From IMG/VR virus record IMGVR_UViG_3300009514_000045, positions 1 to 44,205 of that record: a DNA stretch of 44,205 nt, one strand, 5' to 3'. The position numbers were made by a program, and so were the translations under genes. Below, one piece after another: positions 6,701 through 42,817 of the stretch (the first letter of the stretch is position 1; the number at the start of each line of letters is the position of its first letter). The DNA comes from a virus. A model generated the notes under the pieces. The model made no database searches, had not been told where the DNA came from, and was given only the letters and a program-made list of their open reading frames with translations.

Positions 6701-9700
6701 TGCCCGGGAGCGAGAGCATCCTGCACGGGATCCAAAAGCTCGATAGCTCCGCTGTTCGGATCCATCTCGAAGTGGATGCCCCGGAAGAGGGTACGGCCAG
6801 GAAGAGCGGTGCCCTGGTCATCAATCTCTCCGAACAGGACAAGCTCGAAGTCCTCGGACTCAACCAGCGGTGCGATGCCCAGAAAGTTCCGGGGTTCTGG
6901 CTGGTAGACAGGGCGGACCGAAATCTTGGCTGTGTCGGTGATGCTGTTGAGGCCAATGGGAGACGGGCTGGAAACATCCACTTTCGTAGTGCGGCCATCA
7001 TCGGAAAGGTTGGCATCCACGATGATGAAGGGGTATCCACCAATCTCCAGGAGGTGTCCGGCCACAGCGAAGGAGGTGACATCCCCGGTGAAGGTGATGG
7101 ACAACATCCCCTTGTCTACGGGCTCGTAATCCAACACCAGCGGGGGGAGGAAGCCGGGGGATCCTCCAGTCGGGATACCGTCCACCTCTGTCGTCACAGG
7201 GATAGAGGACAACAGGGAGAGAACATCGTTGCCAGGGGCCCGGCTGCCCGCTTCCTGCTGCGGGGTAGGCCACACGACCACGGTGGTCTCGTTGTCCCCG
7301 GCGTCGTAGGTGCTGGATTTGATGTAGAACGGAGTCGCTCCAAGCCGGAGCAGCATTCCGGGAACCAGGTCCCCAGTGCGGTCCGTCTCCAGGGTGAAGG
7401 TGTCCTGCTCCTGCTCCAGGAAGAACGGTGGACGCCAAACCGGAACGGTGGAGGTGTTGTACGCCTGTTCGCCGCCGAATGCCTCGTAGACGCCGTAGTT
7501 GATCTGGACGGTCTCCGCCGGGTCCACATCTTCAGTGAAGGCGATGATGTTGTTCTCGAACGTCGCCGTGGTCGTGTTCCCGAAGTTCTGGAGGTTGGCA
7601 CCCACCCAGATCTGAGACTCAATCATCGCGGCAACGGTCTTACCCGACGGGTTCACCGAGTAGTTGCGGGCATCAATGCGGGTGGCTTCCTCCAACCGGA
7701 CGATAAGAGGCAGGAACTCGATGATGGGATCCCCAATCTGGTTGCCTTGGGAGTCTGCCTGCCAGTATTCAGCCTCGACCAACTGCCCGGCCCGGAGCGG
7801 GGTGTTGATGTAGAAGGCCCCCACGATAGGGCTCGTGACCACATCCAACCGGTCCACCGTGATCAGTTGCTCCACGAAGTAGGCCGTTACCCCCACATGG
7901 CCAGTCATGTCGGCATCGGAGAGATTGATCTCCCCAGAGGCCACATCAAACTCAGCCGCACCCGCAGCCAGAATAAGCGACGGCAGGAACTGCTCGTCGT
8001 AGGTGACAACAGATCCATCCAGGTCTACGAGGGTGTCCTCACCAAACTTCAGTTCGCCGGTGCTGTCGAGAACCTCAACCTGGTCTCCGAGAAGCGGGTC
8101 GGTGAACGCGGCCACCACCGTGAGGTCGGCTCCGATGGTGTAGGTCTTGCTGCCAACCCGGATGGAGAAGCTCTGGTTCGTGAAGTGCGGGTTGGCCACA
8201 TCCGGGACAAACAGGGCGTTGTTCGCCATGACCCCCAGTTCAGTTCCCCGCTCCAGGGCCGTGAGGCTCGCCTCATCGTTGCCGTAGTCCAGACCGAAGC
8301 GAATGGAGATTTGGCGTCCCCGCTGCACAGCATCCGTGATCACCGCTACCAGCCGGTTGGTCGGCTGAGTTGCCGGAGTCGGGACAGTCCCCAAACCATC
8401 AAGGAGACGGATCTGGAAGGGCTCCTCCGAGAGGTGGTTGAACTGGGTGTATTGGACATCCGCCACCACCCCGGCGTCATAGACCGTGGTGGGGAATCCT
8501 CTGTGGAGCTTCCAGGAAGCGTAAGGCTCGCCGTAGGTAGGACCGGCGGAAGCCAGGAACGGCACAGCAGCCTCGACTTCTAGTTCGGTCTCACTGGTGA
8601 CAGAAGCCACGATGTAGGAGCCCGCAGCATCCCCACCCACAATCCGGAGCCGGTATCCCGCCGTGACCCCATCGGTGAGGAAGGTGGCATTCTGGTCCTC
8701 GAAGGTGGTGGTGCCCTGGTTGAACTCGCCAGCAGCCCCAGCGTCCACCTGAGCCCCCACAGATTCCACGAGGAGGGCCACGCCTTGGCCTCCATCCGCC
8801 GGGAGCAGGTAGTCCACGCTTTCCTGCTGGAGAACGAACGTGGAGCCGTCTGCGGCCACATAGAGGCCGTTCCCGGCACCCACGGCCGGGTGGAGGGTCG
8901 CCCCCACCACATTGCTGTTTCCGAGGGCGATGGCCGTGGTAGCCATCTCGACACGCGGAGTGGAAGAAACACCCCGCTCCAGCCAGAAGAACTGGTCGTT
9001 TCCGAAGTCATAGAGGACATCGGACAGGTTCGATAGAGCCCGGACAGCCAGGCCGTCCACGACCTCGAAGAAGACATTCTCATCGAACCCAGCCACATCC
9101 TGGAGAGGCGGGTTCGTGATGGGGAACGTCGGGGTCCCAATGATGTTCTCTGCGAAGACCTCATTCTCGAAGGTGTCTCGGGACTTCACATCGGGGGTCG
9201 TGTTGCTCCGGTCCTTGTTCTGAGGACTCCGGAAAACACCGAGGGAGGAGCCCTGGTCCGGGAGCCAGTTGGCGTTGGAACTGGGGTCATCGACCCTCCA
9301 ACCGGGCAGGAAGCCAAGGAGAGCCGCACCGGAGAAGTCTCGGTCTTCAATGGACACGGAAGAGCCGAAGCCAATCTCCAAGGTGCCACTGTCCGGGTCC
9401 GCGGCCTCGATGACGACGTGGTCCCGCTGGGCGAACGCCTGGCCACCGGTGATGAGGGCGTCGATGTCTGCTGCCACCTGTACGGCAGTGAAAGTCCCGG
9501 CCCCGAGACCCGAAGCGTCCCAGGTGTAAGTGGTGCCGTCTACGGCGAAGTAGAGCTTCTCGGTACCCTCCAAGGTGAAGGGCCCCTGCTCCCGGGAATA
9601 GAGGCGGGCCTTCTCAGCGTAAAAGGCGGGTTCCACATCGGCCTGGAGGAAGTACAGGGCTTCCCCGGAGAAGGTGTTGCGGTCTTTCCGGCCAATGGCG

Positions 9701-20256: not shown

Positions 20257-23200
20257 TCAGCCCTTCCTTCCGCCCGGCGGGGGCCGCACTCCTGATTCAC
20301 GGAGCGCCTTTTTGACGATGCCGTAGACCTTGGCGGTGTCGCCACCATTGATGTTGATCTGAACCATCCCCCCACCACCAGCAGCCAAAGCATCTGCTAC
20401 CGGACCTCCAGGTTTACCCCCCAAGAGTTCATCAGCACGGTTGATGGGAGTGATGACACCCCCACGGGCCCCTCCCCGGTAGATAAAATCCCCTACATCA
20501 GCCGTCTTCTTCGTGCGGTGCCTCCCCCCGAAGAGGGTCAACATCTCTTCATCAACTCCCCGAGTTCCTTCCAAGACCTCCACCTCATGCTTTGTAAGAC
20601 CTTTTCCAGTCAACATGCGCTGCAAAATCTCAGACTGACTACCACCCGTGGCCGAGGCTGTGATGGCGGCCAAATTCGAGGCCCCCTCTTGCTGAAGGGC
20701 CCTGTAAAAAGACTCCTGCATAATCCCAGGGTTCTTCCTTTGGAGGAAGTCCATGTTGGCTTTATTCTGGGAACTCAATTCCTCCCGAACCCCCTCAATC
20801 GGACCGGACACCACATTGAGGGCCTCCTCCATATCCTCTTTGTAGTTGAAATCCTCCCCAAGAGCCGGTCCAGCCATCCCCGCCTCACGACGCATCTTCT
20901 CGATGTCCTTACGGCCCTTACCCGTAACCACACCCCTTTCCTGCTCTCGGGCTTGCTCTACCCCCTTCTCCATAACGGCAATGGCTTTCTCAACCTCCGC
21001 AATCTTGCCTGCGGGAGCACCCTTTTTCCGAAGCTCCGCTAGATCTTGTTCTGCGGTTTTCAAGTTCTGCTGAAGAATACTCCTGTTGGAGGCAATCTCA
21101 TCGAGCAATTTTTGACGGTTAGCCTGGGCCTCTGGGGAGTCCTTCCGGATAAACCCAAGGATGCCAGAAGCAAATCCTCCAATTCCTTCGAGGATGCCTG
21201 CAATCTTCGTGTTCAACAGATTGGCAACCGTCTCGGTGTTGCGGACAATCTCCTGGGTGAGTTTTTCCTGAGCACTCATAGGCTCTTCCACAGCAGAGGC
21301 CAATGTCTTCTCCTGGGATTGGATGAGATCTCCTACGTTCTTCAGTTCTTTCTGCTGGTTCGCGTCATCAATAGCCCCCGCTACAATCTGTCCACTTTCA
21401 TTGATGAACCCCCCAAACGCTTTTGCCTGAGACTCCATCTCTTCTTTGCTGAATTTCCGGCCTTTCTCAGCCTCCTTCTGGAGCCGTTGCAACTCCTCGT
21501 AGTTGCCTCGAAGTTGACCATCCACACGCCGCAATTCTTTCAGTTGTTCCCCGGAAATTCCCGCATACTGCTCGAAAGCAGCCAAGCCCCTAGCCGAAAG
21601 TTCCGAGAGGGGAGTGTCCCCAAGGGTCTGAAGCATCATCGCCAACTTGCCGCCCATGTCGAGTTCGTCTAGAGCTTTAGCCTGATCTCCGAGACCACCC
21701 TCCACACCCTTAGACAGACGAATCATGGTCTCCATTTGACGAGCCGCAGTGTCATCAGTGGCCCGCAACTGCGTTGTCACATGTCGAATTTGCTCCTCAC
21801 TCATACCGGCCAGAGCTTTGACAGCCTCGGGGTCACCCTCTGCCATAGCTGTCACAGAGAAGCCCTTCACGCCAGCTTTGTCGAAAGCCTTCCCAATACT
21901 GTCCGTAATTCCAGACTCCTCCATCCTTCTACCGAATGCCATGGCTGTGTTTTCCGCAGCATTCCCCATGATATTAGAGACATCCTTTTGCCCTGCGATG
22001 ATGATCCTCTTGAATCTTTCGGTGTAGGACTCACCTGCAAACCCCTTTTGGAGACCCTGCACAAAGTTAGAAGCATTGGTCTCACCAAGCCCCTCAGCTA
22101 GTTCTGCAATCAAACCTGCGGCTTCCTCCACCCGAACATTGTAAAGAGCCAAGCCAGCAGTGGCTTGGGTCACCATGCCGAAGAACCGCTTGGCCCCGAT
22201 ACCAGACTCCATGGCAGCGGCGAAAATGGACCCAAAACCCTCTTCAATGGTTCGCAACCCTCCTCCGAAATCGTGCATCCAGTCAGCCGTGGTCTGGGCG
22301 ATCTCCTGGGTACTAACCCCCAAGGTCTTACTGTAAACCACAGCCGTCCGCGTAAGATTAGAATATGCTTCCATCTTGTCGCCAGACTTACTAAGAGTCC
22401 TCTCAATCTCCTTGAATGTGAAACCCGCCTCATTCGCAGCCCCCACAATCTCAAGGATGTCTTTAGGTTGCTGCCGAAACTGCCACGCCACATCGAGGGC
22501 AGCCTTCCGGGCCGCCTTCAAGGAGCCCTCCAAATCATCGATGCCCTCCCGGGCATTCGTGATGGCAAAGTCGGCCGCCCCTGCATTGGCCATGATAGTC
22601 TTGTTCCACTCTTTCGTCTGAGCATCCGCCTTAGCGATGAGAGCGATAATGCCCGCAAAAACGCCAGCCACAGCAGCCAGGCTTCCAGCAGCAGCCGCAA
22701 GTTTTGTCCCTGCTCCAGCAATAGCCCTTCCGGCCCCGGCTCCTCGACCAACACCGCCGCCACGAGCCGCCAGACGGCCTCCCACGGCCTCCATGACCGC
22801 ACCAGATCTACCCAAGGCTTTCCCAAAACCATCCGCCAAAGGCTTCAAGTTCGTAGGATCAACCCGACCAAGGCCGTCAATGAAATTATTGGCCATATCG
22901 ACCCCGGCGTCAGCCATCTGAACTTTCCCGGCTTTCCCCGCGAAAGTGTCCAGCACCTCTGTCCGCCGCTTCATCACCTCACCGACAGTCTCCAACTCCT
23001 CGGCGAGAAGGGATCTCCGCTTCTCAACCGTCTGGTTGAGAGCGTCCATCTCCATCTTGATGCGGCCCTTGGCGAGCTTGTCGGTTTCCTTCTCAAACTG
23101 GGCTTGCAATTCGGCTGCTTTGATGGCGTCTTTGGAAAGCTGTTCCTGGAGGCCAAGGAGCTTTCCCTGAATCTTGTCCATGTCGTCGTGGAGACCGACG

Positions 23201-23394
23201 GCCCGGGCCTTAGCAACCATGTTGCTGAATTGGCGGGTGGAATCCGCCATGGCCTTCTCAATCTTGGACAGGGCCTTGGGGTCAATCCGGAAGCTCTCAG
23301 CCGCCTTTTGGACAGCCTTTGAGATCACCTCGGTACCGGCCACCGAGGCGAACTGAGCGTGAATACCGGCAGTGATGGCAATATCTTCGGCCAT
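20257..23394 (-). CDS. Tail tape measure protein
   Basis: The 1045-residue protein is mostly helical. Residues 40-145 form a long charged coiled coil (KIQGKLLGLQEQLSKDAIKA). A Gly/Ala-rich stretch (205-230) precedes one strong hydrophobic segment at about 232-254 (AAAAGSLAAVAGVFAGIIAL). Further coiled coils follow (around 630-850, KQGFAG-free and rich in Glu/Lys). The C-terminus has the typical ending of this family: a Gly-rich linker, MVQININGGDTAKVYGIVKK, and a basic Pro/Gly tail. No peptidase or lysozyme domain was seen. It follows the two assembly proteins, the standard order. The length of such proteins sets tail length, and 1045 residues would fit a tail of roughly 150 nm by the usual helix rule (inference). 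Confidence 0.9.
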   Translation of the reverse strand: MAEDIAITAGIHAQFASVAGTEVISKAVQKAAESFRIDPKALSKIEKAMADSTRQFSNMVAKARAVGLHDDMDKIQGKLLGLQEQLSKDAIKAAELQAQFEKETDKLAKGRIKMEMDALNQTVEKRRSLLAEELETVGEVMKRRTEVLDTFAGKAGKVQMADAGVDMANNFIDGLGRVDPTNLKPLADGFGKALGRSGAVMEAVGGRLAARGGGVGRGAGAGRAIAGAGTKLAAAAGSLAAVAGVFAGIIALIAKADAQTKEWNKTIMANAGAADFAITNAREGIDDLEGSLKAARKAALDVAWQFRQQPKDILEIVGAANEAGFTFKEIERTLSKSGDKMEAYSNLTRTAVVYSKTLGVSTQEIAQTTADWMHDFGGGLRTIEEGFGSIFAAAMESGIGAKRFFGMVTQATAGLALYNVRVEEAAGLIAELAEGLGETNASNFVQGLQKGFAGESYTERFKRIIIAGQKDVSNIMGNAAENTAMAFGRRMEESGITDSIGKAFDKAGVKGFSVTAMAEGDPEAVKALAGMSEEQIRHVTTQLRATDDTAARQMETMIRLSKGVEGGLGDQAKALDELDMGGKLAMMLQTLGDTPLSELSARGLAAFEQYAGISGEQLKELRRVDGQLRGNYEELQRLQKEAEKGRKFSKEEMESQAKAFGGFINESGQIVAGAIDDANQQKELKNVGDLIQSQEKTLASAVEEPMSAQEKLTQEIVRNTETVANLLNTKIAGILEGIGGFASGILGFIRKDSPEAQANRQKLLDEIASNRSILQQNLKTAEQDLAELRKKGAPAGKIAEVEKAIAVMEKGVEQAREQERGVVTGKGRKDIEKMRREAGMAGPALGEDFNYKEDMEEALNVVSGPIEGVREELSSQNKANMDFLQRKNPGIMQESFYRALQQEGASNLAAITASATGGSQSEILQRMLTGKGLTKHEVEVLEGTRGVDEEMLTLFGGRHRTKKTADVGDFIYRGGARGGVITPINRADELLGGKPGGPVADALAAGGGGMVQININGGDTAKVYGIVKKALRESGVRPPPGGRKG

Positions 23395-26294: not shown

Positions 26295-27050
26295 CTAGAT
26301 CAGTCCGCCGCCGCCCGTCGTGGTCGATCCGTAGCGGACCGAGCCAAGCTGGCCGATGGTCGGGTCGTTGCCAGTCGCCAAGAACTCGCCGTACACGCTG
26401 GAGAAGTCGTGAACGTCAGTGACGTTCGCCGTACCGGACTCCATCACGATGGCTCCGTCCTTGGAGAAAGTCGTGTTCCAGTCAGCCCACCAGCACGCCT
26501 CGTAGAGGGTGATGAGAGCCGTGTGACCGCCGCCAGAGATGCCTGCAACCTCGGTCACCGTGGGGAACTCGATGCTCTTCACGCCGCCGTTGAAGCTGCC
26601 ACTGGTGCCGGAGAATCCGTCGCCCAGATCGTTGTCGGCCAGGGTCGAGAACACCACCTGCTGCTCGATGTCGAAGGGCCACTTGTGGTGCCGGAGGCTC
26701 CGCACGGGACCGTCGATGCCCGCGGCGTAGCCGGTGGCCTGCCACAGGTTCGAGAGGTAGAGAAGGGCTCGCTCCATGGAGAGCGACATCATCGCGGTCG
26801 GACCCGGGACCAACTCGGCGATCATGTCGCCGAAGCCGATGCCCCGAAGCTCCTCGATGGTGCGGCTCTCGGAGGGGTTGATGCTGGACAGGACACCCAT
26901 CTGGAACAAGGCCGAACTGGTCCCGTAGGCGGGAGCCAGGACGCGGACCTTCTGGGAAACCGCAGTCCTGGTGTTCGGGCTCGTCCCAAAATCGTAGAGA
27001 GGGCTTGTGCCCTGTACGCCCTGCTGGGGATTGAGATCTTGGTTGGCCAT
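26295..27050 (-). CDS. Probable tail tube protein
   Basis: The start at ATG 27050 (MANQDLNPQQGVQG, 251 residues) has GGAGA 6 nt upstream; an earlier in-frame start would cover the leader and has no ribosome site. The protein is a compact, mixed beta/helix chain (TAVSQKVRVLAPAYGTSSAL; FPTVTEVAGISGGGHTALIT; YEACWWADWNTTFSKDGAIV) ending in Gly-Gly-Gly-Gly-Leu-Ile. It sits immediately before the chaperone-like and tape measure genes and has its own promoter-like element and a 5' leader with a stem-loop, consistent with a highly expressed major virion protein. No motif proves the fold. It could alternatively be another tail protein, but tube is the best fit by size and order. Confidence 0.7.
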   Translation of the reverse strand: MANQDLNPQQGVQGTSPLYDFGTSPNTRTAVSQKVRVLAPAYGTSSALFQMGVLSSINPSESRTIEELRGIGFGDMIAELVPGPTAMMSLSMERALLYLSNLWQATGYAAGIDGPVRSLRHHKWPFDIEQQVVFSTLADNDLGDGFSGTSGSFNGGVKSIEFPTVTEVAGISGGGHTALITLYEACWWADWNTTFSKDGAIVMESGTANVTDVHDFSSVYGEFLATGNDPTIGQLGSVRYGSTTTGGGGLI

Positions 27051-27075
27051 GGTCGTCTCCGAGGGTTCACACAGG

Positions 27076-27090
27076 CCCCCACGGCGGGGG
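27076..27090 (-). promoter_or_regulatory. Stem-loop in tube gene 5' leader
   Basis: CCCCC and GGGGG pair around a 5-nt loop in the predicted untranslated leader of the tube mRNA, about 25 nt before its start codon. Such leader hairpins can protect abundant mRNAs from decay. No other function is evident. Confidence 0.35.
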
Positions 27091-27107
27091 TCTATCAATC
27101 TAGGGGA

Positions 27108-31817: not shown

Positions 31818-33389
31818 CTACTCCTCGAAGGCGTAGTAGGTCTCGCCGGAGATGATCGCGGGGATTTCCCCCGAACTTACAGCTATGTTCTCACCGGGCT
31901 CCCTGCTTGGAAGGGTGAATTGGAAGGTAGTACCTCGATCCTCGCTGGATGCAAACGAGATAACCCCTCGATGGATTCCAACGATCTTCTTGCACAAGGC
32001 CAGCCCGATACCACTCCCCTCCACGTCTGGACGTAGGCGAGAGAACATCGTGAAGACCTTCTTGCGGTACTCAGGATTGATTCCAGGGCCATTGTCTTCA
32101 ACGAAGATTTCCCAGTCCATGAGACCCCGGTAGGCCGAAACATGGACCTCGGGAACACGGCCCGTGGTGTTGAACTTGATGCCATTACAGATGAGGTTTT
32201 CGAGCAGTTGGCGGAGCAATACAGGATCCCCCACCACCGATACAGGCAATCCTCCGGCCTCGACTTTAGCCCCCCTCTCAGCAATCATCGGACCGAGGTT
32301 CTGAACCGCTTCTGCGAAGACCGTGTTCATGTCAACCCACTGCATCGCAGACCTGTCCGTCTGGACGCGGGAGTAGGTGAGAAGGGCCTCGATGACCTCA
32401 TGGAGAGCTTGTACGCCATCTACAATATGCTGGATATAGGAAGATGTTTCGTTTGAGAGAGTCCCCGGGTACTCAATCGCCAGAAGTTCGGCGAAGGAGG
32501 AGATACGGCGAAGGGGGGCTTTGAGTTCGTGGCTAGCTACATTAGCAAACTGCTCCAAGTCCCGGTTAGACCTCTCCAGGTCGTGAGTTCGGTCCTTCAA
32601 GACCTCCAGGGTAAGCCTCTCCTCGGAGACATCCCGGAAGACAGCCATGGCCAGTTGGCCCCCTCCGTTGACCGGCATGAGATGGATGGTGTGTTGGTGC
32701 CCCAGTAGAACCTCATCCACCACATTGCGTTCCCCGTTCAAGGCTTGCTCATAGTAGGGCTGGAGTTTGCGGACGATGTCTGCGGGGAACGTGGCCCAGA
32801 GAGTGAGGCCGTTCGTGTTCATGACAGGATCCAAGCCCAAGGACGCTACCAGGGGGCCTTCTGCGACGATATGGGTCATGTTCTGGTCAAACAGGAAAAC
32901 CGAGGTCTTCGGGAGGTTCTCGACCAGAAACCGATATAGACTCTCAGCCCGCTTCTGTTTGGTGACATCCCGGGAAGCACTCCGAATCTGGAGAAGGTCC
33001 CCATCCTTGCTGCGGGCCGACTCTGCCACTGTCTCGACCCAGACATAATGGCCATCCTTGTGCTGAAAGCGGCAATCCAACCGGAAAGCCTCTTCCGGTC
33101 CCCCACAATCGGAGACCAGGGCCTGGCACATCTCCTGGTCCTCCGGATGGAGGAAATCCTTGGGATGTCTTCCAAAAAGCTCCCGCGGGGTATACCCCAG
33201 GAGGTGCTTCACAGAGGGGCTGACCCAAATATAGCGACCAAACTCGTCATGGAGGCAAACCAAGTCGCTCGCGTTTTCCGCGAGAAGCCGGAACCGTTTC
33301 TCACTGGTGTGGAGACTCTGGACAAGGAACGCCAGTAGCACCAGGACCGCTACAAGAACGAGCCCTCCCACAATAGCTAGAGTGGTCAT
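31818..33389 (-). CDS. Membrane PAS-PAS sensor histidine kinase
   Basis: The start is ATG at 33389, overlapping the response regulator stop as ATGA, giving 523 residues. Residues 4-26 are one transmembrane helix (LAIVGGLVLVAVLVLLAFLV) with no periplasmic domain. PAS1 spans about 33-145 and PAS2 about 150-258. The dimerisation/phosphoacceptor helix has VASHELKAPLRRISSFAELL with His287. The ATPase domain has an N-box LLENLICNGIKFN (395-407), G1 DNGPGI (432-437), F-box KVFTMFSRLR, and G2 GSGIGLALCKKIVG (458-471). All catalytic motifs are present, so it should autophosphorylate on His287 and pass phosphate to the adjacent regulator. The PAS domains may sense a small ligand or redox state (unknown). 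Histidine kinases are rare in phage structural clusters. Confidence 0.9.
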   Translation of the reverse strand: MTTLAIVGGLVLVAVLVLLAFLVQSLHTSEKRFRLLAENASDLVCLHDEFGRYIWVSPSVKHLLGYTPRELFGRHPKDFLHPEDQEMCQALVSDCGGPEEAFRLDCRFQHKDGHYVWVETVAESARSKDGDLLQIRSASRDVTKQKRAESLYRFLVENLPKTSVFLFDQNMTHIVAEGPLVASLGLDPVMNTNGLTLWATFPADIVRKLQPYYEQALNGERNVVDEVLLGHQHTIHLMPVNGGGQLAMAVFRDVSEERLTLEVLKDRTHDLERSNRDLEQFANVASHELKAPLRRISSFAELLAIEYPGTLSNETSSYIQHIVDGVQALHEVIEALLTYSRVQTDRSAMQWVDMNTVFAEAVQNLGPMIAERGAKVEAGGLPVSVVGDPVLLRQLLENLICNGIKFNTTGRVPEVHVSAYRGLMDWEIFVEDNGPGINPEYRKKVFTMFSRLRPDVEGSGIGLALCKKIVGIHRGVISFASSEDRGTTFQFTLPSREPGENIAVSSGEIPAIISGETYYAFEE

Positions 33390-33826
33390 GGTTTCTGGAG
33401 GATAGCGGTCTGGAACCAGAAGTTGTCCAGGCTCGCCACGGCCCTGGTGAAGTCTTTGTAGGCCACCGGCTTCACGACGTAGGCATTCGCCCCAAGCCGA
33501 TAGCACTCATTCACATCGTTGGCGGCTGAGGAAGTTGTGAGGACCACCACGGGGATGCTCCGAAGGTCCTCCTCCCCCCTCATGTCTTCAAGTACCCCCC
33601 GACCATTCTTGCGGGGCATGTTGAGGTCGAGGAGGACGAGATCGGGCGTGGTGGCCCCAGAGAAACGGCCTTCCTTCCGGAGGTACTGCATCGCTTCCAC
33701 GCCGTCCAAGACAACCTGGAGATCGATGTCCCTCTGGAGTTCTCCGAAGGCTTTCTTGGTGAGAGCTACATCGGCAGGATGGTCTTCAACGAGAAGAACT
33801 CTCTTTGGGATAGGAGGTGTCATCAT
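33386..33826 (-). CDS. Single-domain response regulator, Rcp1-like
   Basis: The 146-residue protein is a lone receiver domain. Acidic pocket residues are Glu14 and Asp15 (VLLVEDHPADVALTKKAF), the phosphoacceptor is Asp67 (LVLLDLNMPRKNGRGVLEDM), the switch Thr is at 97-98 (VVVLTTSSAANDV) and Lys119 is in YVVKPV. The C-terminal NFWFQTAIL helix is typical of Rcp1-type regulators that partner phytochrome-like kinases. There is no DNA-binding output domain, so signalling would go through protein contact. GAGGG lies 5-8 nt before the tandem ATGs. It overlaps the kinase start and follows the membrane coiled-coil gene after a few bases. Confidence 0.93.
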   Translation of the reverse strand: MMTPPIPKRVLLVEDHPADVALTKKAFGELQRDIDLQVVLDGVEAMQYLRKEGRFSGATTPDLVLLDLNMPRKNGRGVLEDMRGEEDLRSIPVVVLTTSSAANDVNECYRLGANAYVVKPVAYKDFTRAVASLDNFWFQTAILQKP

Positions 33827-34526: not shown

Positions 34527-37500
34527 CTAGAGGGTGGACCGCAGGTTGAAGGTCACCACGATGTAGAGCAGCGGGAAGACCGGCTGGTAGAAGGCTTCCA
34601 CCTCGGCCACCGTCGGGTCGTCGGAGGCCACGTTGGCCTTGACGCCGGTGAAAGCGGTGAGGATTTCAGCCTTCACCAGGAGTCCCAGCGTAGTCGAAAG
34701 CTGGCCTTCGATCTGGCTGAGGATTCCCGGCAGGAACTTGATGCCGATGAACCGGTCCAGGGTGGCCCGGGCCTGCTGCTGCACCTCGTCGGCGATCTGG
34801 ATGACCGTGGGGAGCTTCGTGAGGATGTTGTCCATCTGCGTGGTCAGACCCTGGCGGATCTTCAACACGGGGGGAGCGTCCTCGATGATGGTCACACCGC
34901 GAACCGCGGTCTGGTTCTGCTCCACGGCATCCAGGGTACGGGCCAGGCCCGTGTAGCCGAACAGCTTGCGGCCGGTCCAGGGAGTCGCCACATCCACGGA
35001 GGGCTGGACGATGGTCCCGGCGAGTCCGGCGGCCAGGTAGGACCCGTCAACCAGGAACTCCTCCTCGGTGCCGACAGCGTCGGTGAGGGAGAGAGTCACG
35101 ATGTCGGGGTACACCAGGCGGAACCGGCTGCGTCCGATGGCCTGGGCAGTGTCCCCAGCGGTCCGAGGCAGCGTACCGGCGGGCATGCCACCGATGGAAG
35201 TACGCTCGGCCCGGTGCCGGATGGTGCTCTGCACGTCACAGTGGCGTGCCATCAGGTTGAAGTAGTCCACCACACTCGCCGTGGGCACATCCAGGGGCAC
35301 CAGGATGTCCGGGAGGAGGCCACCACTCAGCGGGCCCTCCAGGTTGTCCAGAGCTTCGATGAAGGCATCCACGGAGGCCGTGTCGTTGACCCCGTCGTTG
35401 TCCTCATCGATGTCCTTCTGGACCTGCTTGACGCCCACCAGGACCGCTCCGTTGAGGATAGCGAGGTAGGAAGCCAGCGTCACCGGGTGGTCCGGGGAGT
35501 TGGTTCCGTACTCGGCCTCGATGGAGGCGAACTTGGTGAACAGCTTCGTGGAGAAGTCCTGCTTCGTGTAGTTGTAGCTGGCGTAGTAGAGGTCCCCGAC
35601 TGCGGGCTCGTTGCCGCCCCGCTCGTAGGTCTCGACGATGGCCGTGTCTCCGGCTCCAACGCCCAGGGTGTTGGTCACCAGCAATTCCACGCCGGGGAGG
35701 GTGTTCACCGGGAGGTTGCTGTCGGTCGTGACCACACGCCGCACGTTGAGGGTGAAGCTGGAACCGTTCGGGTAGTTGGTACCACCCTCCCGCTCCAGGA
35801 CCGTGAAGGTCAGGCCGGTCACCAGGTCGCGGTAGGTCTGGCCCACGGTGCCATCCTGGCCGGTCCCGCTGTTGAGCAGCGAGTCGTTGGCCGTTCCGGA
35901 ACCGTCCACCGGGTCGGAGGAAGTGACGTAGAAGCCGGAGATCCCAGCCTCACCCGTCGCCCCGTCACCGGAGGCAGCATTCAGGCCCACGCCAGGCAGC
36001 AGAACATCGTCTGCCGTGGCGTCGTCCCAGGCCACCGAGGAGGAGACTCCCAGGGCCACGTTGCCGAGGCTCTGGATGTACAGGTACTCCGCGTTGGCTT
36101 CGTCCCGCACCGTCTTGGCCAGGGCTTCGCCCGCGAAGTAGGTGAGGGCCGGACCGGTGATCCAGGAGGTCATCAGGCTGGCCGGAACCGTGGCATCCGA
36201 GTGGCCCATGAGGGCGGATACGAGAACCTCGGTCTCCACCGGAGTACGGGCGGCCTGAGCACCGTCGGAGAATCCGAGAGTGTCATTGGCGTTGCCCTCA
36301 CCGATGAAGATGGCAGAGGTCTCGTCATCCTGGCCGGAGCGGAACCGGATGGCGGCACCCTCCTGCCGGACCAGACCGGCTGCCACTGCGGCGGCTGCCG
36401 AAGCGGCGAGTCCCTGGTTGGCCATCTCAACGGCGATCTGGTTGAGGATGGTGTTGGCCGTGGTGGCCGGTCCCAGGGGCACATCCGCGGAGGAGCCATC
36501 TGCCAAGGCAGCACCCGCAGCGTCCGTGAACTCCACCGTGACGGGGGTGCCGTCGAAGGTGAACTTGAAGACGTTGTTCTGCGGGGTGGTTCCGCCGTCA
36601 GCGTAGAAGGTCACGACGGGCTGGCCGTCGCGGGCATCCGCGTAGGTAGCTGCGGGCACCTGACCATCGGCGAACCCGACGATTCCCCGGAGGGTTGCGG
36701 GCTGGACGGTAGCCTTCCATCCGGCCAGACCCTGCTCGTTGACGGTGAGGCCGGTCAGGTCTGCACCCGAGGAGCCTTCCACCTTGAGTTGGGCCTGGTC
36801 GAGGGAGGACTGCATGTCCAGGGAGCCGGAACCCGGCACCAGGCGGTTGCGGAGGATGATGCGGTCCCAGAGCAGGGCACTCGTGTTGTCACCGGCGATG
36901 GTGAAGCGACGGGCCACAGCACCGTCCACGATCTTGACCTGGTCGGAGGCCGGAGCCGGGTCGGAGTCCCAACCCGCCAGGATGGCGAAGTCCTGAGCCG
37001 GGGTTCCATCGGTGATGACCTCCAGGAAGCCAGCCGCGTCACCGTAGGCTTTGGTCAGGATGAGCCGAAGCTGAGCATCCGCGTCTGCCTCAACCTCGAC
37101 GGCCAGACCATCGAAGGGTGCCGCGAGGGCCCCGATGATGGGCAGCAGAGCCGCCTCAACCGCCGCAGCCAGAAGGCTGGCGGAGTTGTAGGTTCCCGGG
37201 GGGATGGTGGCGGTGAGGATTCCGGAACCGCCGGAGACATCGCCCGTGTAGTTCAGGCTGATGGTGTCGTACTCACCGGCCGAGATGTCCACGGCGGAGG
37301 TGAAACGAGTGGCACCAGCGTACTGGGGACGGGCATCGGGGTCCTGGACCAGGTAGGTGGTCGTGGCGTCCGGGGCGGTTGCCCAACCGGAAACGGTGGC
37401 CACCTTGGTGGTTCCATCGTAGGCGCTGATGGTGTCAGTCAGACCCAAGGTTCCGACGGGGGAGTTGTTGGTCAGCGTGACCGTCCATCCGACGTAGTAA

Positions 37501-39782
37501 TCATCGATGTCGGAAGCACCGGCAGCCAAGGTGATGGCGGCTGCCGCACCGCCCGCAGCCGTTCCAGTCTCACCGGTGGCAGCGTTGTTGATGGCGGAGA
37601 CGAAGTCCGACAGGTCCTGGGTGGACCCGGAGACTGCGGAGGACTGCACCAGCACACCATCCAGGCTCAGGTTCACCTCGCGGTTCGTGGTGTCGATGGC
37701 GTAGGTGGTCTGGCCCGAAGCGGCATCGTATCCCACCTCGTCACCGACCAACTGGGCGTGGAAGCCCGCGTCTCCGGCACCGAGGATGTCAGAGAGGTCG
37801 ATGCCCGCGGCACCGGTCACGAGATCGGAGCCGTCGATCTTGACCCGCAGGTGGTCGGAAGCACCGCTGATGGGGAAGTAGGGATCCGAGCCCGGGACAC
37901 TGTACTTCGCCAGGGTGCTGTCCTTGGCGGAGAAGGTCACGGTCACGTCCTCTTCGACGGAGCCCGCGAAGGAACTGGTGTCGAAGGGAGACTCGAAGCG
38001 GCAGTCAGCCGTCCGCTCAGAGCCGCTGGGGAACTGGATGGTGATGCCAGCCAGGCCAGCCGACTTGGAGCCAAACTGCGGGGTCAGGAGGTCGGCCCCA
38101 TCCTCGTTGGCGATGGTGTAGGTGCCCACACCAGCAGCACCAGGGGTCTCGACGGCCACCGTGTACGCCTGGTCGGTCAGGGTGTTGTAGTAGAAGGTGC
38201 AGAAGACCTGGGCTCCGACCGGGACCTCGTCTTCGAGGGTGATGGTCGAAGTGCTGGATTCCACCTTCGTCACCGTCACGGAACCGCGGTTGAGGGCATC
38301 CTGGATGCCGAAGCCCCAGTAGGCCACCACCAGGTCCGGGCGGTTGGTGGGCAGGTCGATGCGGCCGTTGGAGACCGTCTGGAAGAGGCTCTGGCCCAGG
38401 GGGCTGTTCCGGCCGTTTCCAGTGGTCGGGACCAGCGGAAGCTGGAACTCGACCTTGGAGGTCACCGGAGGAGACACGCTGGTGTCGGTCACAGCATCAC
38501 ACTCGGCGAGGTACTGCTTGGCGTCCACCAGGGAGGTGCTGATCTGGGTGTCATCCAGGAACTCGGTGCCCTGAGTGTGCTCACCAGAGCGAACCGTCAC
38601 AGCGGTTCCCCAGAGGATCTTGTCGTCCTGGAGGATGAAATCGGCTCCCTCGACGTAGTCGGAGCGGTCCGGGGTGGCACCGCAGCGGAACACATCGGTC
38701 ACACCGATGTGGGCCAGGTAGTCGAAGGTGTCCTGCCAGGTGTTGAAGTAGTATTGCACGGTGACGACTGCACCGACCTCGGGGGCCCAGGGCAAAGTCA
38801 CGGCACGGGTCTGGCCATCCACGGCGGTCGGGATGACCTGCACGCCGTCCACTTTGACCACCACGTCCGAGGGGTCGGTCGTGGTCACACCACCGTTGGA
38901 GCCGTCCACGATGGGGCCCTCGAAGGTGTAGAACACCCGGTTGCGGGCAGTGGACTCACCGTTGGTGAAGCCGAGGGTGCTGTTGGCGGTCCCGTTGCCC
39001 ACCGTGATGTCGCGGTCGGCGGTGAGAGACACAGCAGTCTCACCGTGGTTGTTCGTGAAGATCCCGGCGGAAGCACTCGTGCCGGAGAAGCCGCTGTTCA
39101 GGAAGCTGGCCATCTGGGAAGCAGACCAAGGAGTCCCGGGGTTGGAAGCCGGGATGGTGATGGTCACTTCGGCATCATCGGAGTCGATAGTGAAGATCAG
39201 GGTGTCGTTCACCCCGGTCTCGATGGTGTAGCTCTCACCCACCTGTCCGTAGAGAAGGGGGGCGTCCGGCGTCACCTGGTCACTCACGTCGTCCGTGGTA
39301 CGGGTGTCCGTCCGGTTGAAGAAGTAGGTGACCCGCACTTCGTCGCCCAGGTTGGGAGGCGTGGCGAGTTTGAGGACACCACTCTCACCGTTGATCTGGA
39401 GAACCACAATGGGGTTGCCATTGATGGTCACAGACACAGCGGAGGTGTTGGTGGCGGTCGTCCCCGTGCCGTCACCGGTCACGATGGGGTAGTTGCGGAC
39501 CTGGATACGGTCCAGCGAGCCGTCGAAGGCGCCCAGGGTGACCTGGCCGGATTCGGAAATGCTCACCACTGCACGACCCGTCTCATCCTCCTGGACGATG
39601 CGCTGGTCAACGCTGCTGCTGGAGCCGCGGACCAGTTCCAGGTCGTTCTGGGTCAGAAGTTCGGAGCCCGTACCGATGTAGATCGGCAGACGAAGGCCCT
39701 GGAGGAGGGCCTGAGTGGGGTTCTCGAAGAGAGTCCGGGTGTAGACGCCGGGGGGTGCGTAGATGCTACCGGGGAAAGCCAT
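34527..39782 (-). CDS. Tail sheath protein, giant form (1751 aa)
   Basis: The N-terminus (MAFPGSIYAPPGVYTRTLFE, then LRLPIYIGTGSELL) and the C-terminus (NQTAVRGVTIIEDAPPVLKI, ATLDRFIGIKFLPGILSQIE, and PVFPLLYIVVTFNLRSTL) match contractile tail sheath proteins, whose ends donate strands to neighbours. The usual length is about 400-700 residues, so roughly 1000 extra residues are inserted in the middle (about 100-1250). These are Gly/Thr/Asp-rich, beta-type sequence with repeated modules ending YFFN, YYFN and YYNT near residues 150, 345 and 530, and a TLGF-containing module near 270 and 1170. The extra domains probably decorate the tail surface (inference). The gene has its own promoter-like element and tandem stem-loops at the end. 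Confidence 0.9.
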   Translation of the reverse strand: MAFPGSIYAPPGVYTRTLFENPTQALLQGLRLPIYIGTGSELLTQNDLELVRGSSSSVDQRIVQEDETGRAVVSISESGQVTLGAFDGSLDRIQVRNYPIVTGDGTGTTATNTSAVSVTINGNPIVVLQINGESGVLKLATPPNLGDEVRVTYFFNRTDTRTTDDVSDQVTPDAPLLYGQVGESYTIETGVNDTLIFTIDSDDAEVTITIPASNPGTPWSASQMASFLNSGFSGTSASAGIFTNNHGETAVSLTADRDITVGNGTANSTLGFTNGESTARNRVFYTFEGPIVDGSNGGVTTTDPSDVVVKVDGVQVIPTAVDGQTRAVTLPWAPEVGAVVTVQYYFNTWQDTFDYLAHIGVTDVFRCGATPDRSDYVEGADFILQDDKILWGTAVTVRSGEHTQGTEFLDDTQISTSLVDAKQYLAECDAVTDTSVSPPVTSKVEFQLPLVPTTGNGRNSPLGQSLFQTVSNGRIDLPTNRPDLVVAYWGFGIQDALNRGSVTVTKVESSTSTITLEDEVPVGAQVFCTFYYNTLTDQAYTVAVETPGAAGVGTYTIANEDGADLLTPQFGSKSAGLAGITIQFPSGSERTADCRFESPFDTSSFAGSVEEDVTVTFSAKDSTLAKYSVPGSDPYFPISGASDHLRVKIDGSDLVTGAAGIDLSDILGAGDAGFHAQLVGDEVGYDAASGQTTYAIDTTNREVNLSLDGVLVQSSAVSGSTQDLSDFVSAINNAATGETGTAAGGAAAAITLAAGASDIDDYYVGWTVTLTNNSPVGTLGLTDTISAYDGTTKVATVSGWATAPDATTTYLVQDPDARPQYAGATRFTSAVDISAGEYDTISLNYTGDVSGGSGILTATIPPGTYNSASLLAAAVEAALLPIIGALAAPFDGLAVEVEADADAQLRLILTKAYGDAAGFLEVITDGTPAQDFAILAGWDSDPAPASDQVKIVDGAVARRFTIAGDNTSALLWDRIILRNRLVPGSGSLDMQSSLDQAQLKVEGSSGADLTGLTVNEQGLAGWKATVQPATLRGIVGFADGQVPAATYADARDGQPVVTFYADGGTTPQNNVFKFTFDGTPVTVEFTDAAGAALADGSSADVPLGPATTANTILNQIAVEMANQGLAASAAAAVAAGLVRQEGAAIRFRSGQDDETSAIFIGEGNANDTLGFSDGAQAARTPVETEVLVSALMGHSDATVPASLMTSWITGPALTYFAGEALAKTVRDEANAEYLYIQSLGNVALGVSSSVAWDDATADDVLLPGVGLNAASGDGATGEAGISGFYVTSSDPVDGSGTANDSLLNSGTGQDGTVGQTYRDLVTGLTFTVLEREGGTNYPNGSSFTLNVRRVVTTDSNLPVNTLPGVELLVTNTLGVGAGDTAIVETYERGGNEPAVGDLYYASYNYTKQDFSTKLFTKFASIEAEYGTNSPDHPVTLASYLAILNGAVLVGVKQVQKDIDEDNDGVNDTASVDAFIEALDNLEGPLSGGLLPDILVPLDVPTASVVDYFNLMARHCDVQSTIRHRAERTSIGGMPAGTLPRTAGDTAQAIGRSRFRLVYPDIVTLSLTDAVGTEEEFLVDGSYLAAGLAGTIVQPSVDVATPWTGRKLFGYTGLARTLDAVEQNQTAVRGVTIIEDAPPVLKIRQGLTTQMDNILTKLPTVIQIADEVQQQARATLDRFIGIKFLPGILSQIEGQLSTTLGLLVKAEILTAFTGVKANVASDDPTVAEVEAFYQPVFPLLYIVVTFNLRSTL

Positions 39783-39818
39783 TGGGATCGTCCTCCAGGG
39801 ATGTTTCGGCTATCGGGC

Positions 39819-39842
39819 CTTATAGGCTCTCCACCGAAGGAA
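39819..39842 (-). promoter_or_regulatory. Promoter-like element for the sheath gene
   Basis: On the minus strand TTCCTTCGGTGG is followed by AGAGCC and TATAAG (39824-39819), about 37 nt before the sheath start. The copy before FmdB shares the TTCCTTCGGTGG and CCTATAAG blocks. A good ribosome site (GGAGGA) follows. It is probably a late promoter for a highly expressed virion gene. Confidence 0.6.
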
Positions 39843-39873
39843 CCCTGTTTGGGGTTGTTCGTTGCTCTTTTCC

Positions 39874-39896
39874 ATCTGACCGCCTCCCTTTGGAGG
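39874..39896 (-). promoter_or_regulatory. Stem-loop with GGTCAGAT flank (copy 2)
   Basis: CCTCC and GGAGG pair around a 4-nt loop and are followed by CGGTCAGATGG. It lies between the FmdB and sheath genes, upstream of the sheath promoter-like element. It is related to the copies at 39937-39961 and 26174-26199. Confidence 0.5.
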
Positions 39897-39936
39897 GGTG
39901 GGGTCACAGCACGACGATTCCCATTCCTATTTTCTC

Positions 39937-39961
39937 ATCTAACCATCTCCCCAAAGGGAGA
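39937..39961 (-). promoter_or_regulatory. Stem-loop with GGTTAGAT flank (copy 3)
   Basis: TCTCCC and GGGAGA pair perfectly around a 4-nt loop and are followed by TGGTTAGATGAG. It starts within a few bases of the FmdB stop, the position of a terminator, but has no U-run. Confidence 0.5.
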
Positions 39962-39965
39962 GGGG

Positions 39966-40430
39966 CTACTCCCCGGCGGGAGCGGGTTCGGACGCTGCCT
40001 TGTTGACGGCATCCGCAAGCGTTCGGCGGGCATTGACCACCTCCCGCTCTTTCTTGTCGATCACCCGGTAGTCCCCGGCACCCTCACGGGTTCGGACCAG
40101 GTGTTCCATCTGAGCATCCACACCATTCTTGCGGGCCTCCTTGAGGACGGCCTCCTTGTGCTGTTTCCGCTCTTCGATGAGGGCCCACTTCTGTTCAGCG
40201 TCCCTGCCAATGACCCGGTCAAAGTTGTGGTCAATCTGGCTGACCCCCGTGTTCTGGGGGACAGGGCCGTTCGGGGTGTGGGCGAAGGTGTGGTTCACGA
40301 CAGAGACCTGCCGCTTGGCATCATCTCCACATTCCGGGCAAGGAGCAGCATTTCCAGCCTCTTCGGAACTCTTGGAGAGCTTCTCGAAGCGGATTCCGCA
40401 ATCCTCACATTGGAACTCAAATAGGGGCAC
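39966..40430 (-). CDS. FmdB-type zinc ribbon protein
   Basis: The 154-residue protein begins MPLFEFQCEDCGIRFEKLSK and has the four-cysteine zinc ribbon typical of FmdB-family proteins: Cys8, Cys11, Cys31 and Cys34 (CPECGDDAKRQVS). The remaining 110 residues are charged and helical (KQHKEAVLKEARKNGVDAQM) with an Ala/Pro/Glu tail. FmdB-type ribbons occur as small putative regulators and also in large phage genomes near structural genes; their exact role is unknown. It has its own promoter-like element and directly precedes the sheath gene, so it may be a minor virion or assembly protein. Confidence 0.82.
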   Translation of the reverse strand: MPLFEFQCEDCGIRFEKLSKSSEEAGNAAPCPECGDDAKRQVSVVNHTFAHTPNGPVPQNTGVSQIDHNFDRVIGRDAEQKWALIEERKQHKEAVLKEARKNGVDAQMEHLVRTREGAGDYRVIDKKEREVVNARRTLADAVNKAASEPAPAGE

Positions 40431-40517: not shown

Positions 40518-41747
40518 CTACTTGATGACCTCGAAGGTCTTGTTCCGGCCCACAAAGAACGGGTCTCGAACCGCAACCAGATCCAGATTCTGCACAGCTT
40601 GGAGTCGGTTTGGCTCACCTTCTGCGACAAGTTCATCGTCAGTTAGCCCTGCCGCGGCCTCGGCCTCTTCCTTCGTCTGAGGCAGTACCCGCTCAATGGC
40701 CGCCGTCAGAGGCACATGGATAGCCCAGTCCGTCTGGACCTGCACCGACAGGGAGGCGTTATAGAAGTAGTCCTCGGCATTTTCGTCGAAAATCTCCTCG
40801 GATTCGCCCCCGTGGGAGACCTCGATGATTTCGATTCCTTCGGAAGAAAGCCGGTTTCGAGCCACCCCCAGCAAGTAGAGCATGGTTCGATCCGCAATCT
40901 CCCCCTGGGCCGTGACATCCTTCGCCATCACATCCAGGTCCAAACTGATCTCCCAACGGCCCCCGTACTCCAGGGCCACAGGCTCCCTGCGGTCCCCGAT
41001 GACGACAGCCATGATGTCTCCGACAGAAGTGCGGCGTCCAAAGGCCAGAACGACCCCAGGAATGGCCTTGACGTTCGTGTGGTTGTCCTGGATGAGCCAT
41101 GGACCGGTGCTCTCCCCTGGATACCGGTAGTCCGCAGAGAGGCAGACTCCGGAAGGAAGAGGCGTCGCCAGGGTGATGATTCCGGTGGTGTAGTCCACCG
41201 TGTAGTTGATGTTCTCGACCAGAGAGAGGTTCCCCGGGAGTTCGTAGAGTCGGAGGGAGCCTTCGTGGACCGGCGTACTGGCAAGCTGGTACTGGAAGGC
41301 GTCGATCTGAACTGGAGCCTCGTCGATAGTCTCCAGGAGAGGGTCCACGTAGAAGACCTTGTGCTCCCCTGTGACTCCCCGGACAGTGACTGTCTCCTCC
41401 CGGACCTCGATGTAGTAGATGCCGCGGGGAGAGGGGAATCGGCCGTTGTTGTCGTTGACAGCCCGCAGATCCTCCCGAACCCACTCAATAGCAAGGCCCG
41501 GGTTGTCCCCCACCTTGGTCAGGTGGCAGTAGGACACCACAGTCCCCTGAAAGTTGTCGGCGGACAAGGAAAACGGGTTCGCAGAGGACCCTTTGAGGAT
41601 GATCCCCATGCAGGGCCGTTCCTGGAAGCTGTACTTACCCTGGATGTTGGGTACCAGGTCATCCTTGTACTGCGGGTCATAGGACCAGAATCGGCGAAGT
41701 TCGCCGATCATCCGCTTTTTGATGGACTCTGTGAGGGCGTTGTACAC
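40518..41747 (-). CDS. Virion protein of the neck/connector region (409 aa)
   Basis: The start is GTG at 41747 with a GGAG 6 nt upstream. The protein opens with a helix (ALTESIKKRMIGELRRFWSY) and is then beta-rich. Residues 180-210 (INYTVDYTTGIITLATPLPS, then LSADYRYPG) match a beta module seen in the sheath and giant baseplate proteins. The C-terminal part carries EISLDLDVMAKDVTAQGEIA and ends DPFFVGRNKTFEVIK. It has no enzymatic motif. Its place between connector genes and sheath suggests a neck, tail-terminator or collar protein that joins head to tail (inference). Its ribosome site is held inside a predicted stem-loop. Confidence 0.75.
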   Translation of the reverse strand: MYNALTESIKKRMIGELRRFWSYDPQYKDDLVPNIQGKYSFQERPCMGIILKGSSANPFSLSADNFQGTVVSYCHLTKVGDNPGLAIEWVREDLRAVNDNNGRFPSPRGIYYIEVREETVTVRGVTGEHKVFYVDPLLETIDEAPVQIDAFQYQLASTPVHEGSLRLYELPGNLSLVENINYTVDYTTGIITLATPLPSGVCLSADYRYPGESTGPWLIQDNHTNVKAIPGVVLAFGRRTSVGDIMAVVIGDRREPVALEYGGRWEISLDLDVMAKDVTAQGEIADRTMLYLLGVARNRLSSEGIEIIEVSHGGESEEIFDENAEDYFYNASLSVQVQTDWAIHVPLTAAIERVLPQTKEEAEAAAGLTDDELVAEGEPNRLQAVQNLDLVAVRDPFFVGRNKTFEVIK

Positions 41748-41794: not shown

Positions 41795-42817
41795 CTACTC
41801 GCTCTCCTGCATGGCCTGGATGAGCAGTCCCCGGGCCACAGCATTGAGGGGCTCGTTGGCCGGTCGAATCTCACTGATCTCGATGGGGAATCGCTTCCGC
41901 TTCTTGGCGAAGACCTTCTCGAAGAACTCCGGGAAGCTCCCCGCCATGCTGGTGCCGCCCGAGATGACCAGCGGGATGGCGTTCGGCAGGGAGAACCGGT
42001 CCTTGATGATGGCGAACTGCTCCTGGATGTGCTTGATGCAGTAGTTGATCAGTTCACGGTAGTAGAGGGCCAGGGCTTCCTGCTCACGCCCCTCTGGGTT
42101 CATCAGGTCCACACCCTTCTCTTTCAGGGCACACATACGGGCCTGGGTGCTTCCGACGGCCTTGGCCGCCCCAGCGTCAATCCAGTCGCCGCCGCGGGCC
42201 ACAGAGAAAGACATCCCCTCGATTCCGTTGATCGCCAGGGCGATGTTGCACATTCCGGACCCGAAAGAGATGGCCAGGCCAGAGAACTGCTCCTTGACGC
42301 ACTCGGAGTAGATGATGCCCATGGCCTCGTTGGTCGGATAGGCTTCGTAGCCGCACTCCTCCACAATCCGCTCGAAGACGCCGCGGTGGTAGACCACGTC
42401 CCGGTCTTCGTCCACAGGAGCGGCCGGAACGGAGAAGAAACAGACTTCGTCCTCTTCCTTGGGGTCGCCCAGGACATCCCGAATGAGAATGCCCAGGACC
42501 TCCAAGGCTTCCAGTTCGCCAGCAGCGATGAGGCCCTGGGACAGGGGCCTACGGGCCTCACGGCCGAAGACATTGGCCATCTCCAGGGCTGCATCCCCCA
42601 CAACGATGATCTGCTCGGCGTCCTTCCGCTCGATGAAGTTGACGCCTGAGAGCTTGAGCATCTTCTTGGCTTCCAGGTCCAAATCGAGGAAGGCGTCACG
42701 CATACGCCGGGTCTCAACCCCACGGCCTGTTCGGCGAGCCGCCACCAGGTTCATGGTTCCGATGTCGAGACCTACACCGAGGGTGGCCTTCTTCTCTGCT
42801 GCCTTTTTCTCGCTCAT
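41795..42817 (-). CDS. Actin-like ATPase (ParM/MreB/FtsA superfamily)
   Basis: The 340-residue protein has the five marks of the actin/Hsp70 fold: phosphate-1 LGVGLDIGTMNLVAARR (13-29), connect-1 YPTNEAMGIIYSE (160-172), phosphate-2 GLAISFGSGMCNIALAINGI (180-199), adenosine PLVISGGTSMAGSFPEFFEK (282-301) and connect-2 NEPLNAVARGLLIQA (321-335). In phosphate-2 the usual first Asp is replaced by Ser184, which may slow ATP hydrolysis. GGAG lies 6 nt before the ATG. It sits within the connector operon, 3 nt from the preceding gene. Phage actins known elsewhere move DNA or segregate plasmid prophages; a role in virion assembly or particle positioning is open here. Confidence 0.88.
   Translation of the reverse strand: MSEKKAAEKKATLGVGLDIGTMNLVAARRTGRGVETRRMRDAFLDLDLEAKKMLKLSGVNFIERKDAEQIIVVGDAALEMANVFGREARRPLSQGLIAAGELEALEVLGILIRDVLGDPKEEDEVCFFSVPAAPVDEDRDVVYHRGVFERIVEECGYEAYPTNEAMGIIYSECVKEQFSGLAISFGSGMCNIALAINGIEGMSFSVARGGDWIDAGAAKAVGSTQARMCALKEKGVDLMNPEGREQEALALYYRELINYCIKHIQEQFAIIKDRFSLPNAIPLVISGGTSMAGSFPEFFEKVFAKKRKRFPIEISEIRPANEPLNAVARGLLIQAMQESE

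Follow-up and report, generated by a model that had tools for sequence, protein, structure and literature searches.

A probable contractile tail sheath of 1751 residues with a modular insert, from a jumbo or huge phage

The question raised by this locus is whether a single gene of the window—the whole stretch of 44,205 nucleotides analysed here, a linear 44.2-kb IMG/VR record that was probably cut from a larger genome—encodes a tail sheath about three times the normal size, and what the residues lying between its two ends could be doing. The gene (34527..39782, minus strand) is an open reading frame with an ATG start and a GGAGG-containing leader immediately 5' of it, and its product has exactly the 1751 residues given in a sequence-only reading of the locus. 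Full-length relatives, 57–66% identical, are found in several independent contigs. Compared with the relative in contig L001, codon positions 1, 2, and 3 differ at 27%, 21%, and 58% of sites, respectively, with dN ~0.29, dS ~1.76 (near saturation), and dN/dS ~0.16. The whole-length identity in independent contigs, together with this ratio, argues for a real rather than a chance frame, and the gene is, judging by its substitutions, under purifying selection. An antisense open reading frame (35214-40424, plus strand, 1736 aa) was rejected as coding, because the substitutions between the window and L001 fall preferentially on third positions in the sheath frame; it is regarded as a by-product of a third-position GC of 0.83.

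A sheath core formed by both ends

Both ends of the protein had been said to match sheath proteins, and this holds, although by different kinds of evidence for each end. The C-terminal end is recognised by the tail sheath profile phrog_2839 (residues 1393-1747, E 1e-25), which does not reach the N-terminal end of the protein and which is found at E <= 0.001 in 16 of the 28 relatives tested. The N-terminal end, MAFPGS..YAPPGVYTRT..IPIYIGTGSE, aligns with gp178 of Bacillus phage G and gp326 of Tunturi_5, and is further supported by the structure model of a relative described below. On the window protein, neither of the Pfam sheath models PF04984 and PF17482 scores above its curated cut-off. PF17482 matches four of the 28 relatives (best E 3.7e-07), and phage G, whose protein is an annotated sheath, likewise falls under the PF04984 cut-off. 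Searching the record of the window itself with PF04984 also gave no match, a result that is uninformative because the sheath family is too divergent for this model, and sequence searches of the PDB with the single window protein and with the family profile returned no matches.

The relative modelled as a whole is that of contig L070, complete, 926 aa long and 37% identical to the window protein. Its full-length AlphaFold model (pLDDT 83.3, pTM 0.60) finds contractile sheaths as its best solved matches, and the Foldseek matches listed are sheaths. Against the sheath of Staphylococcus phage 812 it reaches a Z of 34.4 (rmsd 2.5 A over 310 residues). Since this alignment spans model residues 29-913, the N- and C-terminal ends form one sheath core. 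The window protein was modelled with AlphaFold as residues 559-1751 only (pLDDT 82.8, pTM 0.62), and this portion aligns with the phage 812 sheath (8q1i_I) with a VIA-align Z of 24.8 over 302 residues (rmsd 5.5) and with T4 gp18 with a Z of 20.1. Most of its alignments to solved sheaths begin at model residue 850, that is, residue 1408 of the protein, and a search of a viral model library with it retrieved sheaths, including phage G gp178 and a 1117-aa sheath of an uncultured phage. The sheath reading thus survived a check of whether the ends fail to form a sheath fold. The conserved core comprises ~400 residues, namely the first ~70 and the last ~345. Its N-terminal part, residues 1 to ~70 with an approximate boundary (39573..39782, minus strand), is placed by the phage G and Tunturi_5 alignment and by the L070 model, and its C-terminal part, residues 1408-1751 (34527..35561, minus strand), by the two solved-structure matches and phrog_2839.

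The same gene is the only sheath gene that could be detected in related genomes. Thirteen jumbo or huge phage records of 113 to 618 kb were reached through the relatives, including those of Tunturi_5 and phage G, some of them being themselves fragments, and each of the 13 holds exactly one sheath gene. Sheaths were counted with phrog_2839, with PF04984, and with a protein search using the last 359 residues of the window sheath. Each of these gives at most one gene per record, always the same one, and one extra row in the sheath search (E 0.47) falls within the same open frame. In the isolated jumbo phage Tunturi_5, the 1204-aa relative is the only sheath match.

These results bear directly on the idea that the product is a tail fibre or an adhesin merely sharing a sheath-like end. 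Modular beta repeats are a typical trait of fibres, and one relative holds an ice-binding-like domain in common with a fibre-like protein (see below). However, a complete core built from both ends in the L070 model and the modelled C-terminal portion of the window protein, the absence of any second detected sheath in the 13 records, and the origin of the Tunturi_5 relative in a phage observed to be contractile make a fibre scarcely credible. With a probability of about nine in ten, the window protein is therefore a contractile tail sheath with a modular insert, from a jumbo or huge phage.

Modules, size classes and the A1-A2 slot

The stretch between the ends had been described as about 1000 residues of repetitive beta-type sequence. 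Its beta and repetitive character is borne out by profile comparisons and module HMMs, whereas its extent was underestimated: since the solved-sheath alignment begins at residue 1408 and the N-terminal core ends near residue 70, the non-core part amounts to ~1,300 residues. Two module types recur within it. In a self-comparison with hhalign, residues 281-348 pair with residues 90-157 (probability 98.6%, E ~1e-15), which defines copy 1 of module A (residues 86-160, 39303..39527, minus strand; HMM i-E 5.5e-34) and copy 2 (residues 277-352, 38727..38954, minus strand; i-E 1.6e-34). A third, divergent copy (residues 470-540, 38163..38375, minus strand) is hit by the A profile at residues 498-537 (i-E 1.8e-06), with hhalign probabilities of 77-85%. 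Module B has one copy between A1 and A2 (residues 181-285, 38928..39242, minus strand) and another far downstream (residues 1055-1185, 36228..36620, minus strand); the second matches the first with an hhalign probability of 95.4% and an HMM i-E of 7.3e-07, and residues 185-282 pair with 1059-1181 at 95% in the self-comparison. The module HMMs therefore find three A and two B copies in the window sheath, at least five repeated beta modules, and further beta domains besides A1, B1, A2, A3, and B2 are seen in the model between residues ~70 and 1408. The protein thus has three or more domains, of which the extra ones are inserted between the N- and C-terminal parts of the core, the arrangement of the Type 3 or multi-domain sheaths (PMC9230969). 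Pfam and NCBIfam searches of the window protein and its family gave a sub-threshold DUF2460 as the sole match to module A, and none of the carbohydrate-binding families compared with the modules scored above threshold.

Conservation is uneven along the insert. Between the window and L001, residues 91-650 equal the core in conservation, whereas residues 651-1280 (35943..37832, minus strand), a beta-rich middle of lower alignment occupancy and conservation with a pLDDT mostly of 75-96, are the most variable, with 59% identity versus ~70% elsewhere. This middle does not appear in the rows of the fold search, which is no sign of a new fold. On these alignments, residues 651-1280 are the main source of the length differences among the relatives. 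More than 60 relatives were found, and those bearing inserts range from 916 to 2488 aa. A search of genome contigs gave three MAG contigs, which do not point reliably to a host. The size classes—579 (phage G), 916-926, 1172-1280, 1414-1567, 1585-1884, and 2482-2488 aa—follow the clades of a tree built from the final 400 residues, in which the window groups with L001 (SH-aLRT 98). The largest class forms a subclade (L020, L021, L022, L027, L030, L031, L036, and L060), where members of ~2,485 residues carry ~827 additional residues at position 917 of the window protein; a Pfam search of L020 gave no match for this stretch. In four contigs the sheath gene is split into two overlapping frames (L013:2887-8336, L039:2487-5743, L041:9992-12357, and L004:9893-15105), with three of the four breaks near residues 455-490. 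A programmed frameshift or split gene was considered for these and set aside, the breaks being probable single-contig errors of sequencing or assembly.

The A modules are retained by every insert-bearing relative tested, including the 926-aa one, whereas module B is absent from the relatives of 916-926 aa. In the 926-aa protein, A1 (71-146) and A2 (157-232) are nearly adjacent, while in the window module B lies between them. At the level of sequence, this shows growth of the sheath by duplication of A and B and by the nesting of new modules in the permissive slot that separates A1 from A2. The direction of growth, from small to large, would follow from the small size of the phage G homologue.

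A foreign occupant of this slot is found in the sheath of contig L061, which holds an ice-binding-like domain in its entirety (PF11999, residues 295-485, E 2.8e-28; L061:883-1455, plus strand), inserted in frame between B and A2. The sister sheaths, 86-91% identical and of ~1,220 residues, are without it. A sister phage has a ~82% identical copy in a fibre-like ORF of 710 aa (L089:5689-7821), and the contigs of this clade contain from one to six PF11999 domains each, in ORFs of 490-2101 aa. The fusion was seen on this one contig only, and membership in PF11999 does not by itself show ice binding, but an assembly error is disfavoured because both junctions are in frame and in a tolerant loop. 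It is conceivable, although we consider it rather doubtful, that the tail shaft serves as a display scaffold, where putative binding domains would be swapped with fibre-like proteins into the A1-A2 slot while contraction is kept, in an evolution resembling that of receptor-binding proteins and yielding hundreds of lateral adhesin copies.

Tail genes and the proposed outer coat

Tail genes flank the window sheath on both sides. Directly upstream lies a 154-aa FmdB-type zinc-ribbon protein (39966..40430, minus strand; PF09723, E 4.4e-14), a position conserved in 23 loci, followed by a 409-aa protein (40518..41747, minus strand) that is syntenic in 24 loci and homologous to Tunturi_5 gp324, annotated as 'tail terminator'. 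Further upstream, a gene for an actin-like protein of the volactin family (41795-42817, minus strand; PF25216, E 7e-76) precedes the 409-aa protein, the zinc ribbon, and the sheath, an order that is syntenic in 10 relatives; the volactin family is known from haloarchaea.

Downstream of the sheath, a two-component pair is followed by a 267-aa protein, by the probable tape measure, and by genes of baseplate-like character, among which there is a weak match to a tube initiator. The pair, made up of a PAS histidine kinase and a protein with a receiver domain (31818-33826, minus strand), separates the sheath from the remaining tail cluster, and adjacent orthologues of both were found only in L001. 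The 267-aa virion protein (26295..27098, minus strand) has homologues in phage G (gp180) and Tunturi_5 (gp329), which are both annotated as virion structural proteins, and its position makes it a candidate tail tube. A search of solved structures with this candidate and with the 409-aa protein gave nothing useful. A helix-rich protein of 1045 aa (20257..23394, minus strand) is, by composition and position, the probable tape measure, and its relatives are frames of 1011-1244 aa in seven huge-phage records. The tail cluster ends with a beta-rich ORF of 3555 aa (784-11451, minus strand) without any Pfam or PHROG match, in which residues 624-675 show a weak similarity to module B (i-E 0.0006).

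At ~0.15 nm per residue, the probable tape measure would correspond to a tail of ~155-160 nm. With ~4-nm rings of six subunits, such a tail would be estimated to hold ~230 sheath copies and ~400,000 sheath residues, compared with ~91,000 residues in the T4 sheath, and a cost of this size implies a benefit. The probable tape measures remain within 1011-1244 residues in relatives whose sheaths range from 1567 to 2488 residues, so that the extra mass is expected to extend sideways rather than to lengthen the tail.

By its fold, the core would assemble as hexamer rings around the tube and drive contraction like the sheaths of phage 812, T4, and R-type pyocins. The tandem and nested beta modules, ~1,300 residues in all, would exit the core where extra sheath domains are usually inserted, and from this site they are predicted to radiate outward, as had been proposed, forming a thick coat on every subunit, because the extra domains of known sheaths lie away from the tube (PMC9230969). 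Such a coat need not be an obstacle to movement. T4-like sheaths widen as they contract, and outward domains would consequently gain room rather than block contraction. The likeliest job of the coat would be a lateral, low-specificity contact with cells or environmental surfaces, with ring-to-ring stabilisation in second place. The function of the coat is much less certain than the identity of the protein as a sheath with a modular insert, and a putative adhesive role, preferred over cementing, is held at roughly even odds.

According to the second possibility, the extra modules would mainly act as cement, contacting neighbouring rings and stabilising a tail that bears a very large head, without binding any surface. 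Contacts of phage 812 extra domains with neighbouring subunits have been cited, and cementing proposed, in the survey of known sheaths (PMC9230969). The retention of the A modules and the core-like conservation of residues 91-650 would also suit such a role. However, the most variable part of the protein, residues 651-1280, differs in length by >800 aa between relatives whose probable tape measures are similar in length, which is easier to reconcile with a free outer layer than with fixed contacts. Cementing is thus a possible but less favoured function of the insert as a whole, and it could hold for the A layer alone.

It might also be considered that the product is cleaved, so that only the ends stay in the sheath and the middle is either lost or ends up as a particle of its own. 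Processing of many virion proteins is known from jumbo phages such as phiKZ (PMC13282480), and in the model of the window protein a low-confidence stretch of 57 residues (model 795-851, residues ~1353-1409 of the protein) immediately precedes the C-terminal core. On the other hand, the middle is under purifying selection, and the core requires both ends within a single fold, so that removal of the middle would leave two fragments. Cleavage is accordingly regarded as very unlikely, and a continuous chain with an outward coat, putatively adhesive, is preferred.

Relation to known sheaths and decorated tails

A reference for sheath size is the survey of Evseev et al. 2022 (PMC9230969), where 153 sheaths with lengths from 321 to 1283 residues were modelled and where extra domains, often Ig-like, were proposed to accumulate with genome size, with adhesion or stability as their possible role. 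The longest of them, from phage LacPavin_0818_WC45, has 1283 aa, and the sheaths of phages G, 812, T4, and phiKZ have 579-695 aa. The description of the window sheath as three times the normal size is fair against these four phages, but the survey had already listed sheaths of up to 1283 aa. Sheaths of 1751-2488 residues exceed every sheath of the survey. What appears to be new, as far as was searched, is a family reaching 2488 residues, a traceable series of modules, and a slot occupied by a fibre-type domain; the literature search found no paper describing sheaths of such size, most subscription journals being outside its coverage. The family also offers a natural size series for testing the function of the extra domains, a question left open by the survey.

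Among the individual relatives, gp326 of the Tunturiibacter phage Tunturi_5 (XOB77769.1, 1204 aa) is homologous along its full length and has A1, B, A2, and A3 besides the core, with ~30% identity over the aligned parts, although without most of the variable middle of the window protein. Tunturi_5 was isolated on Tunturiibacter psychrotolerans X4BP1 and is propagated in the laboratory, and its contractile tail of 167 nm has been imaged both extended and contracted (PMC11924767). It is thus the best experimental support, by analogy, that the large-insert sheaths of this family may contract, a support that concerns the 1204-aa and not the 1751-aa member. Phage G gp178 (579 aa) shares homologous N- and C-terminal core parts, and its nearby gp180 is the homologue of the 267-aa protein, but no A or B modules are detectable in it. 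The sheath of phage 812 (8q1i, 9eui, and 8r5g), the best solved-structure match of both models, has 587 aa and, unlike the window sheath, only small extra domains.

Decorated contractile tails are known from the hairy myophages CBB and Y3 (PMC5259590, PMC13282480), jumbo phages that provide a precedent for a coated tail that contracts. In CBB, the tail bears whiskers of 119 nm that are assigned to no gene, and its sheath has been described as a T4 gp18 homologue. With the Type 3 sheaths (PMC9230969), the window family has in common a single core built from N- and C-terminal parts, beta or Ig-like domains between them, and a larger size in larger phages. In contrast to these sheaths of at most 1283 aa, the large branch of the present family reaches 1585-2488 aa, and both the duplication of modules and the domain-acquiring slot can be traced in it. 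Since multi-domain sheaths of up to 1283 aa had already been described, the window family represents an extreme example, resolved in more detail, of a known class of sheath.
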